Shown: positions 19,221-32,556 of the stretch, in pieces | How positions within the stretch are numbered: position 1 is the stretch's first letter | Layout: each line of letters begins with the position of its first letter | Source of the DNA: Bacteroidia bacterium | Lineage (GTDB): Bacteria > Bacteroidota > Bacteroidia > J057 | Length of the DNA: 38,844 nucleotides | Direction: 5' to 3' | NCBI GenBank assembly: GCA_019695295.1 | Contig: JAIBAH010000031.1 | Coordinates: 1 to 38,844 of the forward strand | The notes under the pieces: model-generated | The model's input: only the letters and a program-made list of their open reading frames with translations | Database searches by the model: none | Told to the model about the DNA's origin: nothing | Translations under genes and position numbers: made by a program

Positions 19221-20228
19221 ATGGCAGTAACTCCTTTTGTTGATTACGTAAAGATATATTTCAAAAGCGGGGATGGAGGAAACGGAAAGATATCCTGGAG
19301 AAGAGAAAAATTTGTACCCAAAGGAGGTCCTGACGGTGGAGATGGCGGAGATGGCGGAAGTATTTATCTGAGAGGAAATACTCAATACTGGACATTATTA
19401 GATTTAAAATACCGCAAATTTATCAACGCAGAAAACGGAGTTTCAGGTCAGGGTGCAAAGAAAAAAGGAAAAACCGGAGAAGATATTATTCTCGATGTTC
19501 CGTTAGGCACGATGGCGATTGATGGCGAAACGGATGAATTCATCGGAGAAATTACTGAAAACGGGCAAATGCTTCTGTTGTGTAAGGGAGGAAGAGGCGG
19601 CAAAGGCAATACTTTTTTTAAAACAGCGACGCATCAGGCACCGGAATATGCTCAGCCCGGAGAGCCGGGAGTAGAGAGAGTCGTGGTTCTTGAACTTAAA
19701 GTGCTCGCAGATGTAGGATTGGTTGGGTTTCCCAATGCAGGAAAATCCACCCTTTTATCTGTAATGAGTGAAGCTAAACCCAAAATTGCCGATTATCCTT
19801 TTACAACTCTGGTACCAAACCTGGGAATCGTGAGGTATAAGGATTTCAAGTCCTTTGTCATGGCAGATATTCCCGGAATTATTGAAGGGGCTCACGAAGG
19901 AAAAGGGTTGGGAATACAGTTTCTGAGGCATATAGAAAGAAACAGTGTGTTGCTTTTTATGGTGGCTGCGGATGCTGAGGATATTAAGAAAGAATACAAA
20001 ATCCTGCTCAATGAGTTACAGCAGTACAATCCGGAACTCAAGGATAAGCCCCGGATTCTGGCCATAACCAAATGTGACCTTACGGACGAAGAAGCACAAA
20101 AAAAAATCCGTAAATCGTTACAGAGAATAGCAGTGGAAAAAGTTTTTATCTCTGCCGTTGCGCAAATCGGGATTACAGAACTGAAAGAAACCTTATGGCA
20201 GAAAATTAATGCGAAAGAAGAAGCGTAG
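19221..20228 (+). CDS. obg: Obg/CgtA ribosome-assembly GTPase
   Basis: This 335-residue protein is of the Obg family, involved in late large-subunit assembly and stress response. The N-terminal glycine-rich OBG fold (1-160) holds [13 protein letters not shown] and GGRGGKGN. The G domain has GFPNAGKS (169-176), ADIPG (G3) and TKCD (G4). The sequence ends soon after the G domain, so the variable C-terminal OCT domain of some bacteria is absent, as in other Bacteroidota. It starts 80 bp after adk and is followed 24 bp later by an EamA transporter gene. Confidence 0.96.
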
Positions 20229-26567: not shown

Positions 26568-26698
26568 ACGCAGTACCGGATAAAAGCAAGGGAGGAAAAA
26601 CTATCGTTGGGTTCCGTTCTTAATCCGGAAAAGAAACAGGGAAAAAAAGTGAACAAATCGCATGATTTTTATAAATTTAATTATAAAATCCGGAAAAA

Positions 26699-26730
26699 TT
26701 TGCTTCGATTCAGATTTCTCTATACATTTG
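26699..26730 (+). promoter_or_regulatory. Bacteroidota-type promoter for nuoA
   Basis: TTTG (26699-26702), 20 bp, TACATTTG (26723-26730). This is a full consensus match 83 bp before the nuoA ATG. Confidence 0.75.
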
Positions 26731-26813
26731 CCAAACTTTCAGAAAATGAGAAAAAATGAAAGGAAAAAACAACGTTAAATTTATTCAAACAATAATTATC
26801 CAAAAATAGCATT

Positions 26814-27176
26814 ATGGTAGCCTATTTCGGAATGTTTTTAATTATAGGGATTGCGGTAATTCTGGGTGTGATGCTAACCGGACTATCCGGCATTATCGGC
26901 CCCAAGCGCCCGCAGGAAGAAAAATACATGGCTTACGAAAGCGGGATGGACCCTGTGGGTACTGCTCAGGAGCGTTTTTCTGTAAAATTCTATATGATAG
27001 CGATGCTTTTTATCCTTTTTGATATTGAGGTCGTATTCATGTATCCCTGGGCTGTACAATACAAGGAATTACTGAAATTCGGATGGTTTCCTTTTCTGGA
27101 GATGCTAACCTTCATCGTTATTCTTTTTGTAGGATACATCTACGTATATAAAAAAGGAGGCTTAGACTGGGACTAA
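26814..27176 (+). CDS. nuoA: NADH-quinone oxidoreductase subunit A
   Basis: This 120-residue membrane subunit of respiratory complex I has three transmembrane helices (about 4-25, 58-80, 88-112). The conserved loop YESGMDPVGTAQERF and the following FYMIAMLFILFDIEVVFMYPWA are diagnostic of NuoA/ND3. Instead of nuoB, a DinB-family gene follows after only 3 bp; nuoB comes next. Confidence 0.96.
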   Translation: MVAYFGMFLIIGIAVILGVMLTGLSGIIGPKRPQEEKYMAYESGMDPVGTAQERFSVKFYMIAMLFILFDIEVVFMYPWAVQYKELLKFGWFPFLEMLTFIVILFVGYIYVYKKGGLDWD

Positions 27177-27179
27177 ACT

Positions 27180-27665
27180 ATGCATATCACCCTAAAGGAT
27201 CACTGGCAATTTCATCAATGGCGTGTATCGGAGATTACGGCGTGGATTCCTGCGTTTAATCCGGAAATACTCACCGAAAAAAATGAAGGAACCTTTGGAA
27301 GTTTAGACTTACTGGTGAGGCATTTATATTTTGCAGAGTGGGTTTGGTACAGAAGGCTAAAAGGAGACAGCGGCCCTTTTCAGGTAGATGAACTGATTCC
27401 AATGCAGGAAATATGTGTAAAGTGGAGGGAGATTTCAGCATTATGGGCCGAAGAAGTAGATACAGCTCACGAAAGAACGATGACATACAGAAACCTGAGC
27501 GGCGATTTCTTCTCCAGCCATATTTCAGAAGTAATGATGCATCTTGTGGATCATGCGTCCTATCATACCGGGCAGCTGATGACAACTGCAAGAATGAGGG
27601 GAATCACTCCGATTCATACAGGATACATTCATTACCGGAGAATTTTCAACGAACAACAAACATAA
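27180..27665 (+). CDS. DinB family protein encoded between nuoA and nuoB
   Basis: This 161-residue four-helix-bundle protein of the DinB/YfiT type has the metal-binding triad as H48 (RHLYFAEWVWY), H125 and H129 (HLVDHASYHTGQL). Many members are thiol-dependent S-transferases or have unknown roles, and no substrate can be assigned. It starts 3 bp after the nuoA stop and ends 64 bp before nuoB, so it is probably translated from the nuo transcript. A link to complex I is not implied by the family. Confidence 0.88.
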   Translation: MHITLKDHWQFHQWRVSEITAWIPAFNPEILTEKNEGTFGSLDLLVRHLYFAEWVWYRRLKGDSGPFQVDELIPMQEICVKWREISALWAEEVDTAHERTMTYRNLSGDFFSSHISEVMMHLVDHASYHTGQLMTTARMRGITPIHTGYIHYRRIFNEQQT

Positions 27666-27729
27666 AAAATAAACAATCCGGATACATTCCGTGTTTTAAA
27701 TTTCAAGGAACTTATTAATTTGATACAAT

Positions 27730-28215
27730 ATGGGAATCGAAAAGGCGCTTGCTAAACAAGGATTTGCGTTGACTACCTTAGACGCACTCACCAATTGGGC
27801 ACGTACAAATGCAGCCTGGCCAATGCCAATGGGACTTGCCTGCTGTGCAATTGAAATGATGGCATTTGCAGGACCCCGTTACGACGTATCTCGTTTCGGC
27901 AGTGAAGTGTTCCGTTTTTCACCCCGTCAGGCCGATGTAATGATTGTGGCAGGATGGGTAACTTATAAAATGTCTCACGCAATCAAAAGAATCTGGGACC
28001 AGATGCCTGACCCGAAATGGTGTATGGCAATGGGAGCCTGTGCTTCTTCCGGAGGAATGCATCGCGTTTACGGAGTTGTTCAGGGGGTAGATACCTTCCT
28101 GCCCGTAGATGTATATATTCCCGGCTGCCCGCCACGTCCGGAAGTAGTAATTCATGCACTGATGACGCTTCAGCAAAAAATCAGGGATGAACATTCTATC
28201 TTAAAAGACCAATAA
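27730..28215 (+). CDS. nuoB: NADH-quinone oxidoreductase subunit B
   Basis: This 161-residue complex I subunit carries the N2 [4Fe-4S] cluster next to the quinone site. Ligands are visible as the tandem C38-C39 (ACCAIEMM), C104 (GACASSGG) and C133 (PGCPPRPE). Length is normal. A strong terminator starts 14 bp after the stop and no nuoC or nuoD follows, so this locus carries only the A and B subunits. A weak -7-like TTAATTTG lies just upstream. Confidence 0.97.
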
Positions 28216-28229
28216 AAATGCATTTTCAG

Positions 28230-28268
28230 AAAACACCTTTAAAGAAATTTTTCCTTAGAGGTGTTTTT
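28230..28268 (+). terminator. Intrinsic terminator after nuoB
   Basis: AAAACACCT (28230-28238) pairs with AGGTGTTTT (28259-28267). The stem can extend four more pairs including a G-U wobble (to 28242/28255), and T residues continue on the 3' side. It closes the nuoA-dinB-nuoB transcript. Confidence 0.88.
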
Positions 28269-28300: not shown

Positions 28301-28969
28301 ATGTCTCAGTACCCTTTTATAATTTATCCTCATAAGCCAATCAGCCCGGCTGAAATGCTATGGAAAAGTGCAAGTGTATATGAATCAGTCCGCAAACGCA
28401 GGTCTGTAAGGGATATCAGTGATAAGCCTTTCCCCAAAGCGGTAGTCGAAAACCTGATTCGGGTTGCAGGAACGGCTCCTTCAGGTGCAAACCGTCAGCC
28501 GTGGACATTTTGTGTTGTCAGCAATCCTGAGCTCAAAAAACAAATCCGGGAAATGGCAGAAAGAGAAGAATATATCAGCTATACGGAAAGAATGCCTGAA
28601 GAGTGGAAAAATGACCTCGCCCCACTTGGTACAGACTGGCAAAAACCTTTTTTAGAAAAAGCCCCTTATCTGATTGTTGTATTTAAACGGAATTACGAAA
28701 CTGAAGCCGATGGCCACAAGCACAATAATTACTATGTAACAGAATCTGTTGGGCTTGCCTGCGGGTTTCTCCTGATGGCCATTCATGAGGCGGGACTTGT
28801 GGCCCTTACGCATACTCCCAGTCCGATGGATTTTCTTACAAAAGTACTCAACCGGCCTAAAAATGAACGGCCTTTTCTGCTGATTCCGGTAGGTTTACCC
28901 GAAGAAAACGCCAAAGTGCCGGATATTCACAGAAAACCAATAGCGGAAATCAGTGAGTGGTATGAATAA
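28301..28969 (+). CDS. Iodotyrosine-deiodinase-like nitroreductase-family flavoprotein
   Basis: This 222-residue FMN protein of the nitroreductase fold has FMN-phosphate contacts RRSVR (33-37) and PSGANRQPW (60-68). It follows iodotyrosine deiodinase (IYD) rather than general nitroreductases. In animal IYD the substrate zwitterion is held by a Glu, a Tyr four residues later and a downstream Lys; here these correspond to E90, Y94 (EEYISY) and K115 (DWQKPF). The flanking DLAPLGTDW, ESVGLACGFLL, THTPSP and the C-terminal VPDIHRKP also match. The family reductively dehalogenates halotyrosines. The bacterial role and native substrate are unknown. It stands alone after the nuo terminator and ends 3 bp from the convergent SUI1 gene. 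Confidence 0.87.
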   Translation: MSQYPFIIYPHKPISPAEMLWKSASVYESVRKRRSVRDISDKPFPKAVVENLIRVAGTAPSGANRQPWTFCVVSNPELKKQIREMAEREEYISYTERMPEEWKNDLAPLGTDWQKPFLEKAPYLIVVFKRNYETEADGHKHNNYYVTESVGLACGFLLMAIHEAGLVALTHTPSPMDFLTKVLNRPKNERPFLLIPVGLPEENAKVPDIHRKPIAEISEWYE

Positions 28970-28972
28970 AAA

Positions 28973-29329
28973 TCATACGCCTGAGACTTTGTATTTATAA
29001 CCTAAAGCGGAAAGTTCTGCTTTTACTTTTTCGAGAAAAGAGCCCTGAATGATAATTTCGCCTTCTTTTGCGCTTCCGCCACAGGCACATTTATTTTTCA
29101 GGTGTTTTGCCAGTTTTTCCAGATTATCCTGACTTCCCTGAAATCCGGAAATTACAGTAGCTATTTTTCCTCCCTTTAATCTTTTATTCAGGGTTATTTT
29201 CAGATTTTGCTTTTCAGGAGCAGGGGTTTCTACTTCCGGAAGCTCAGTTTGGGGTGAAAAATCCGGGTCGGTAGAATATACAAGCCCGCCCAAATCCGAC
29301 AAAGAAATATTTTTTTTGTTTTTAGACAT
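28973..29329 (-). CDS. SUI1/eIF1-domain translation factor (YciH-like)
   Basis: This 118-residue protein has a disordered, Pro/Glu-rich N-terminal third, then an SUI1 domain: LKITLNKRLKGGKIATVISGFQG, LAKHLKNKCACGGSAKEGEIIIQG and a final KVKAELSALGYKYKVSG. The KCACGG and GGK segments are characteristic. Bacterial members resemble eIF1 and may influence initiation fidelity; the role is poorly defined. It lies 32 bp downstream of the GT2 gene on the same strand. Confidence 0.92.
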   Translation of the reverse strand: MSKNKKNISLSDLGGLVYSTDPDFSPQTELPEVETPAPEKQNLKITLNKRLKGGKIATVISGFQGSQDNLEKLAKHLKNKCACGGSAKEGEIIIQGSFLEKVKAELSALGYKYKVSGV

Positions 29330-29361
29330 AATGGATTTTTTTTGGGATTATACCTTATTTA

Positions 29362-30399
29362 TTAATGCTTTACGATTTCATGGAATACTTTTTTTCCTCT
29401 TACAAAATGCTCAAATACGATACTTCCTCCGAATGTGCCCGTAGTGGGAAAAGAAGAAGGGGGGACAAGCAAGGATTTCCGGGATTTCAGCAGATAGCCA
29501 AGCATACCGTAAAAGGCAAAATGTGCCTGCAAAATAGCCCTGATATTCGGGAAATCCCCTCTCAGCAGCAGCGTTACAGCAAATACCCCGTCCAGACAAA
29601 GCCGAAGAAACACCTTGGGTAAAATCTGATATGCCGGCAAATTCCTGACAAGAACGGAGAGACTGTTTCGGATATTCAGGAAGGTTTTCCGGGGATTGGT
29701 TTTGTTCAGCGTACCTCCGCCTACATGCCAAACCACGCTTTGAGGCTGATATATGATTTTAAAACCATAATTTTTTACTCTCCAGCAAAAATCAATTTCC
29801 TCCATATGAGCAAAAAAAGAAGGCTCAAACAAACCGGTTTTATCTGTTACTGATTTTCGAATCATACAGCAAGCACCCGAAGCCCAGAAGATTTCTGATG
29901 TTTTATCATACTGCTTTTCATCTTTTTCGATAAATTCAAAAACCCGGCCTTTACAAAAAGGATATCCCAGAGAATCTATCCAGCCGCCCGCAGCTCCGGC
30001 ATATTCAAAAGTATCTTTTGCGTGATGTGCCAGAATTTTGGGCTGAATCACTCCTGTATCCGGGTGTTGTTCCATATATTCGGCCATAGGCTCTACCCAG
30101 CCTGGACTTACCTCCACATCGCTGTTGAGCAGGATATAGTAGGGAGTGTCAATATGAGGCAAAGCCAGATTATTGCCCTGAGTAAACCCGTAGTTTTTGT
30201 CTAATACCAGTGTTTTTACCTGCGGAAACTCCGACTGTACGTAAGCTACACTTTCATCCGTAGAGGCATTGTCCACAACCCATATTTCCAAAGCAGGATA
30301 AGTGCTTCGGGTTACAAACGGCAGAAAACGCTCAAGCCAGTGCTTTCCGTTCCAGTTTAATAAAATAACGGCAACTTTGGGGTATTGTAATTCACTCAT
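29362..30399 (-). CDS. GT2 family glycosyltransferase
   Basis: This 345-residue enzyme opens with the GT-A nucleotide-binding VAVILLNWNG and VVDNASTDES (D43, N44), followed by the metal/donor motif NSDVEV (92-97) and a catalytic-type HMEEIDFCWR near 210. The C-terminal part has a hydrophobic segment (about 260-300), suggesting membrane association. It resembles WbbL-type rhamnosyltransferases of cell-surface polysaccharide synthesis, but the sugar is not certain. It is 6 bp downstream of the YbaB/EbfC gene and probably shares its transcript. Confidence 0.92.
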   Translation of the reverse strand: MSELQYPKVAVILLNWNGKHWLERFLPFVTRSTYPALEIWVVDNASTDESVAYVQSEFPQVKTLVLDKNYGFTQGNNLALPHIDTPYYILLNSDVEVSPGWVEPMAEYMEQHPDTGVIQPKILAHHAKDTFEYAGAAGGWIDSLGYPFCKGRVFEFIEKDEKQYDKTSEIFWASGACCMIRKSVTDKTGLFEPSFFAHMEEIDFCWRVKNYGFKIIYQPQSVVWHVGGGTLNKTNPRKTFLNIRNSLSVLVRNLPAYQILPKVFLRLCLDGVFAVTLLLRGDFPNIRAILQAHFAFYGMLGYLLKSRKSLLVPPSSFPTTGTFGGSIVFEHFVRGKKVFHEIVKH

Positions 30400-30978: not shown

Positions 30979-32556
30979 ATGAAGACACCATTATTAAGTT
31001 TTATCCAAAAAGCCATAAAACTTGCTCAGATTGCGAATCAACCCAACCAGCCTCAGGTAAGTGAACTGATAGAAATGAAAGAGCAGGAGGAGAAGAATTA
31101 CACCCGGAGAAAATTTCTTCAGGATACAGCGAAAGCAGGAGCATTGGTAAGTTTGTCTTCTATTTTCCCGAAAAAATTGCTTTCGGCGCCCCCGATAAAC
31201 GCCAGGATAGCCATAATCGGAGGAGGGATAGCGGGATTATCGGCAGCGCATTATCTCAAAAAAGCAGGTATCGATACATTTACCATTTATGAAGGAGATT
31301 CCAGAACCGGAGGGCGGATTTATACCAAAAAAGACATTATCGGCAATAACTTGTTGACAGAAGTAGGGGGAGAATACATTGACACCTACCACAAAGATAT
31401 GTTTAAGCTGGCAAAAGAGTACGGTCTTGAGATGATAGATACTTTTAAAGACCCGCTGAATCTTAAAAAAGACGCATATTATTTTGAAGGAAGGCATTAT
31501 TCTCTGGAAGAAGTAGTCAGGGAATTTCAGGCGGTATTACCCAAAATTCAGGCTTCTCAAAACGCTCTCGATGAAAACTATACCAACGAAGCCACCCAAA
31601 GTCTGGATTATACCCCTTTGGCAGAGTATCTTGAAAAACTGGGTGCTTCTTCTTGGTTTACCAAAATGCTGGATATCGCCTATACGTCTGAATACGGGCT
31701 TCCTACGGGTGAGCAGTCCAGCCTGAATTTTATTGACATGATTGATACCAGTACCTCCACGGAGTTTAAGATTTTTGGAATCAGTGATGAGCGTTACAAG
31801 ATAAAGGGAGGAAATGGCCTGCTTACTACTCTAATGACTTCTGCACTGCAAAACCATATTCAGACGGATATGAGACTTACAGGGGTATATTCGGTAGGCA
31901 AGCGCTATCAGCTGGTATTCAATGACCGGTCAAGTATAGAAACGGATATTGTCATTATGTGTATTCCTTTCAGTGTATTGAGAAATGTTTCGATGCAGAT
32001 AGAGGGCATGACCAAAGTAAAAAGAATCTGTATAGATGAACTGGGTTATGGAACGAATGCAAAAGTAATGATGGGTTTTTCCAAAAGAGTATGGAGAAAT
32101 GCCGGCTATTTCGGATATTTATTCAATGAATCGGTACATAACGGATGGGACAACGGGCTGTTTCAGAATCACCCGCTGAATGAAGCTGTTGAGGGAGGAT
32201 ATACGGTTTATCTGGGTGGAGAGGACGGATTAAAGGTGCAAAGAGGAGCAGAGCAGGAACTTGCCCGTAAATATGTGGGTATCCTGAATGAGGTGTTTCC
32301 GGGGATTATGGAACATTATAATGGAAAGGCAGCCGTTGCCGACTGGCCTCAGAATCCTTTTGTCAATGCCAGTTATGCCTGCTACAAAGTGGGGCAGTGG
32401 ACTTCTATCTCCGGACTCGAAATGGAACCTGTCGGTAATCTCTACTTTGCCGGGGAGCATTGCTCAGACGAATCGCAGGGCTATATGAACGGAGGCGCAG
32501 AAACCGGTCGAATGGTGGCCAAAACCATCATCCGTAAAATAAAAGGAAAAGAATAG
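30979..32556 (+). CDS. Tat-exported flavin monoamine oxidase family protein
   Basis: This 525-residue FAD amine oxidase has the dinucleotide motif GGGIAGL at 81-87, RTGGRI near 109-114 and the C-terminal FAD signature NLYFAGEHCSDESQGYMNGG. Before it lies a twin-arginine export signal: RRKFLQ (43-48) followed by a hydrophobic stretch and an SAPP-type cleavage region near 69-72. The 42-residue segment before the twin arginines is longer than usual. A second ATG at residue 33 would shorten it, but the promoter position fits the first ATG. The enzyme probably oxidises amines or amino acids in the periplasm; the substrate is unknown. The Cys for covalent FAD seen in animal MAO is not evident. Confidence 0.9.
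   Translation: MKTPLLSFIQKAIKLAQIANQPNQPQVSELIEMKEQEEKNYTRRKFLQDTAKAGALVSLSSIFPKKLLSAPPINARIAIIGGGIAGLSAAHYLKKAGIDTFTIYEGDSRTGGRIYTKKDIIGNNLLTEVGGEYIDTYHKDMFKLAKEYGLEMIDTFKDPLNLKKDAYYFEGRHYSLEEVVREFQAVLPKIQASQNALDENYTNEATQSLDYTPLAEYLEKLGASSWFTKMLDIAYTSEYGLPTGEQSSLNFIDMIDTSTSTEFKIFGISDERYKIKGGNGLLTTLMTSALQNHIQTDMRLTGVYSVGKRYQLVFNDRSSIETDIVIMCIPFSVLRNVSMQIEGMTKVKRICIDELGYGTNAKVMMGFSKRVWRNAGYFGYLFNESVHNGWDNGLFQNHPLNEAVEGGYTVYLGGEDGLKVQRGAEQELARKYVGILNEVFPGIMEHYNGKAAVADWPQNPFVNASYACYKVGQWTSISGLEMEPVGNLYFAGEHCSDESQGYMNGGAETGRMVAKTIIRKIKGKE

Follow-up and report, generated by a model that had tools for sequence, protein, structure and literature searches.

Iodotyrosine deiodinases (IYDs) share a mechanism built on FMN, a (domain-swapped) homodimer, closure of a lid and dehalogenation chemistry, and the roles of their conserved residues comprise a zwitterion clamp, a contact to flavin N5, and FMN binding. 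Namely, a Glu/Tyr/Lys set in the lid binds the zwitterion, the amino-acid part of the substrate, and a Thr (Thr239 in the human enzyme) contacts flavin N5. The animal enzyme (IYD/DEHAL1; human 4ttb and 4ttc, mouse 3gb5, 3gfd, and 3gh8) carries an N-terminal membrane anchor. Bacterial members have also been solved: the Haliscomenobacter hydrossis IYD accounts for three PDB entries (5ko7, 5ko8, and 5krd), of which 5ko8 was crystallised with FMN and mono-iodotyrosine, and 6pz0, presumably from the bacterium Thermotoga neapolitana, makes up four entries together with its relatives and holds bound iodotyrosine. No title on a bacterial IYD came up in the literature searched, which covered papers outside subscription and implies nothing about what is in print.

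We analysed a 38,844-nucleotide window from a Bacteroidia bacterium, which encodes an IYD-type protein of 222 aa. Its gene is a single intact open frame from ATG to TAA, with no overlapping ORF of at least 80 aa on either strand (Table 1). A foreign origin was considered on grounds of composition and rejected, since both the G+C content of the gene (44.7%, against 41.6% for the window) and that of its third positions (40.1%, with eight other window genes spanning 32–48%) are ordinary. The protein matched the Pfam family PF00881 (Nitroreductase) at 79.6 bits and, weakly, PF14512 at 28.4, just above the cut-off of 27. It is the sole PF00881 match at E ≤ 0.001 in its own genome, which is 97.4% complete.

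Table 1. Features of the IYD locus and its surroundings, in window coordinates.
Feature	Position	Strand	Context or basis
nuoA	26814–27176		Upstream of the IYD gene
DinB-family ORF (PF05163)	27180–27665	+	Between nuoA and nuoB
nuoB	27730–28215		Upstream of the IYD gene
Hairpin with T-rich 3' side	28229–28268	+	Between nuoB and the IYD gene; MFE -17 kcal/mol
IYD-type nitroreductase-fold protein, single gene	28301–28969	+	ORF, phmmer, Pfam, alignment, tree, fold match
Codon E90	28568–28570	+	H. hydrossis E91, lid residue; alignment, 36/36
Codon Y94	28580–28582	+	H. hydrossis Y95, same lid set; alignment, 36/36
Codon K115	28643–28645	+	H. hydrossis K116, same lid set; alignment, 36/36
Codon T172	28814–28816	+	H. 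hydrossis T173 and human-chain Thr; alignment, 36/36
SUI1 protein, then glycosyltransferase		opposite	Downstream of the IYD gene
Flavin amine oxidase (PF01593)	30979–32556	+	Further downstream, 2 kb from the IYD gene

Searching the PDB with phmmer gave the H. hydrossis IYD as the best match (287 bits), with human and mouse IYD chains at 185.7–192.1 bits (192.1 for human 4ttb) and 6pz0 next after the animal enzymes at 99.1 bits. Among chains whose names mention neither iodotyrosine deiodinase nor dehalogenase, none exceeded 60.2 bits, where 5ko7 was counted by its entry title, IYD, and not by the label Nitroreductase that it carries in the phmmer listing. Full-length similarity to solved IYDs therefore exceeds that to other nitroreductase subfamilies, and this near-full-length resemblance is far beyond chance. 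The H. hydrossis IYD is 59% identical to our protein (127/214 aligned residues), falls in the same length class (228 versus 222 aa), and has an identical E/Y/K set and Thr. Around FMN, lid, and substrate the two differ at six of 42 positions, with K32, S35, N64, R65, Y91, and P99 here in place of H33, T36, H65, K66, F92, and S100. Human and mouse IYD, each 46% identical (97/211), have the same clamp residues and Thr, whereas our protein begins near the animal catalytic domain, without the membrane anchor, and around the Thr reads THTPSP instead of TTTPLN. The thyroid iodide salvage performed by the animal enzyme does not apply to the bacterial protein. The more distant 6pz0 matches the IYD fold at Z 23.1, with 36% identity across 184 residues, and has a shorter chain of 192 aa, which aligns with residues 24–222 of our model.

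According to the original prediction, residues E90, Y94, and K115 occupy these positions and match the clamp set of animal IYD. The alignment bears this out, as all three align with their counterparts in H. hydrossis (Table 1) and in the chains from human and mouse. T172 aligns with the corresponding H. hydrossis residue and with one Thr of the human chain, which we take to be the Thr239 named in the title of 5yak. In an alignment of 36 rows, consisting of the query and 35 homologues picked from 56 homologue loci, the four residues are invariant, and so are R33, R34, R37, G62, A63, W102, H171, P173, and S174 (36/36 each).

Placement in the IYD clade was checked with a tree of 81 rows (the query, H. 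hydrossis, human, mouse, 73 homologue ORFs including one nitroreductase paralogue, L050 63–740, and four other nitroreductases), and the outcome did not refute the original prediction: the query and the IYDs of H. hydrossis and animals share a clade of 51 rows (support 99/84), apart from the four other nitroreductases. The split between the 76 IYD rows and the rest has a support of 90/87, not starred, in a tree that has long outgroup branches and was built from rows other than BluB and 6pz0. BluB rows were omitted because 0 of 40 relative genomes passed the BluB cut-off. The homologues in the tree carry the phylum labels Bacteroidota, Ignavibacteriota, Chloroflexota, Planctomycetota, and Verrucomicrobiota. 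A residue comparison of 74 homologues included the L050 paralogue and a partial row, L022; the length filter dropped L022 from both trees, and the paralogue was dropped from the second. The simple ORF caller missed the IYD in each of L050 and L058, as well as a fragment in L081. Judged by its sequence, the 222-aa protein is a clear, ordinary member of the already known IYD family, to which it adds a well-supported member.

We then turn to the predicted structure. An AlphaFold2 monomer model built on the 36-row alignment had a mean pLDDT of 93.2 and a pTM of 0.88, and helices 76–97 and 100–109 lie in its lid region. The top match by both Foldseek and VIA-align was 5ko8_B, the chain that holds FMN and mono-iodotyrosine (Z 28.4, 1.2 Å, 218 residues, 59% identity); by this match and the lid helices, the nitroreductase fold with an IYD lid is present in the predicted model. 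Human 4ttc scored Z 28.1, and ranks 1–12 of the VIA list are all IYD entries (Z 23.1–28.4). The best non-IYD folds tie at Z 18.2, namely the Geobacter nitroreductase 4dn2 (30% identity) and BluB (2isj), which has the nitroreductase fold in common with the model but is only 16% identical. The gap in fold match between IYDs and the rest is clear, though a shared fold alone shows no function.

These analyses demonstrate the family, the predicted fold, the residue set, and its conservation. From them we infer, with good support, an IYD-type halotyrosine dehalogenase, and we assign a probability of roughly 0.84 to a soluble bacterial IYD that would use FMN, probably as a homodimer, and carry out reductive dehalogenation under a lid closed over halotyrosine, with a salvage or detoxification role as the weaker part of the reading. 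As an FMN enzyme of nitroreductase fold it would, like its family, most probably be a homodimer. The lid (about residues 76–120) would shut over free halotyrosine, with E90, Y94, and K115 gripping its amino group and its carboxyl group, and T172, placed close to flavin N5, would promote reductive cleavage of the C–halogen bond to give halide and tyrosine. More tentatively, the cell may salvage or detoxify external halotyrosines, whether chlorinated, brominated, or iodinated, and the released tyrosine could enter protein synthesis or the HPPD/homogentisate route.

The same zwitterion clamp could instead hold a ring-modified tyrosine other than halotyrosine, or a halotyrosine-like metabolite, and such a substrate would sit well with homologues that occur in several phyla and have no shared neighbour pointing to halogens. 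The solved structures of its closest relative and of the animal IYDs, however, come from crystals with iodotyrosine or diiodotyrosine, and we consider this substrate assignment quite unlikely. It is also conceivable that the main cellular activity of the protein is that of a generalist, reducing nitro compounds or flavins with NAD(P)H, and that the halotyrosine pocket is incidental. Its nitroreductase fold and PF00881 score would suit such a role, as would its being the sole match to that family in a nearly complete genome, which leaves no other detected member for the job. Yet a generalist would hardly need lid and N5 residues that are invariant in all 36 rows, and the protein groups with IYDs, away from the four other nitroreductases in the tree, so that we give a generalist role very little credence. 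Finally, the best NCBIfam match is BluB (TIGR02476; 5,6-dimethylbenzimidazole synthase), which might suggest this enzyme or a different cofactor enzyme from the superfamily. That match stands at 62.4 bits against a curated cut-off of 150, and in fold BluB lies at Z 18.2 with 16% identity versus Z 28.4 with 59% for the H. hydrossis IYD, making a cofactor enzyme a negligible prospect. FMN-dependent dehalogenation of free halotyrosine remains the reading that we favour.

For a halotyrosine dehalogenase, the gene content of the same genome would fit the salvage of exogenous substrate: it holds two full-length HPPD matches above cut-off, a homogentisate-dioxygenase-like ORF directly beside one of them, and no Trp_halogenase (PF04820) match at E ≤ 0.001. 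Two hmgA matches scored 63.5 and 59.8 bits, far below the cut-off of 510.75. PF21167, tried as a haloperoxidase probe, is DUF6851; it had no match in any control genome and tells nothing about a halogen source. The link between HPPD and IYD is weak because HPPD is similarly frequent with and without IYD, being above cut-off in 19 of the 21 relatives that have a strong match to IYD and in 34 of the 39 that have none (own genome included). PMC9751292 suggests in passing that the chlorination leading to chlorotyrosine might be undone by microbial dehalogenases, by which it means haloacid dehalogenases and not IYD.

The original prediction had further implied that an IYD would be an oddity in a bacterium without thyroid chemistry, and here it does not hold, given the H. 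hydrossis IYD and 6pz0 in the PDB with iodotyrosine and the distribution of homologues. Among 60 related genomes, 21 (own genome counted) have strong matches (E under 1e-30): apart from the genome itself, neither of the two other genus members, 9/10 in the rest of the family (with two at the end of a contig), 0/9 in the rest of the order, and 11/38 in the rest of the class. In a draw over the phylum, 88 of 296 genomes, the own one included, had a homologue at E ≤ 1e-30, with stops in one (G206). The 56 homologue loci, mostly from MAGs, are 50–68% identical to the query and bear names that include Emticicia, Fibrisoma, Spirosoma, Persicitalea, Chitinophaga, Ignavibacteria, Anaerolineae, Planctomycetota, and Opitutales. 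With this wide spread, in the phylum and beyond, bacterial IYDs are common and no curiosity; the prediction as a whole therefore stands in its family and residue assignments and fails in the rarity that it implied. One class-level relative has a complete IYD and also a copy split into two pieces, of which the first contains an internal stop (G051:C337:14178–14826); this copy is probably a decayed duplicate. An apparent IYD fusion in one phylum genome, a 610-aa open frame, was dismissed as an artefact, as the extension runs antisense to a membrane-acyltransferase-like ORF and an ATG stands at the start of the IYD portion itself.

The two animal rows of the first tree sit inside a mostly Bacteroidota clade, which suggested a transfer of IYD from Bacteroidota to animals. 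This was not upheld: a constrained tree in which the animal rows were held with 25 rows outside that clade had a log-likelihood 4.56 higher (p-AU 0.549), in a test where the clade was named after the first tree had been seen and animals were represented by two vertebrates only. A broader scenario, in which bacterial IYDs, with our protein among them, form a widespread accessory system that reclaims or detoxifies halotyrosines from extracellular hypohalous-acid chemistry and the thyroid enzyme is a bacterial enzyme specialised late, possibly acquired from Bacteroidota, is speculative, and we regard it as rather doubtful.

A genome of the same genus, G002 (L105), has the locus without the IYD gene. 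Its flanks align with window positions 26695–28215 (72% nucleotide identity) and 28975–29712 (69%), about 225 bp separate the nuoB and SUI1 flanks, and tblastn found no IYD. The other genus member, G001, keeps the nuoB match with different ORFs beyond it and likewise gave no IYD, so both appear to be without the gene; the two genomes are drafts, 93% and 86% complete, and the G002 site itself is intact. The closely spaced flanks of G002 indicate that the IYD gene is an accessory single-gene locus, for which gain and loss cannot be told apart by this comparison. Together with the wide spread, this natural presence/absence pair offers a way to test, through comparison and through knockouts in relatives that are in culture, what halotyrosine dehalogenation is for in bacteria.

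The IYD gene may have a transcript separate from that of nuo, as suggested by the hairpin that precedes it (z -4.16; 0 of 200 shuffles equally stable), a possible terminator of the nuo transcript; our pattern scan did not report this hairpin, nor did it report a promoter ahead of the IYD gene. A second nuoB-like match, 54% identical, lies elsewhere in the same genome (G000:C214), and the N-terminal segment of the downstream flavin amine oxidase looks twin-arginine-like by eye.

Additionally, we clustered neighbouring ORFs of at least 90 aa (E 1e-8) from the window beyond position 20000 and from 76 relative loci, of which 20 were taken with up to 1.5 kb of flank and 56 with up to 6 kb. Judged by eye from their sequences, the commonest neighbours resemble an MlaF-type ABC protein (17 loci), FabF (13), and RNase III (11), and none of the window neighbours clusters with them. 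Conserved neighbourhood was rejected as a lead to function, as none of these neighbours points to the chemistry of halogens or tyrosine; the genes around the IYD gene in the window likewise look like housekeeping genes and give no pathway link. In eight Bacteroidota loci (L059, L060, L063, L069, L070, L072, L073, and L078) the IYD gene follows an MlaE–MlaF-like permease and ABC ATPase, and six of these loci also have genes resembling FabF and RNase III downstream of it, a context that is conserved yet housekeeping-looking.
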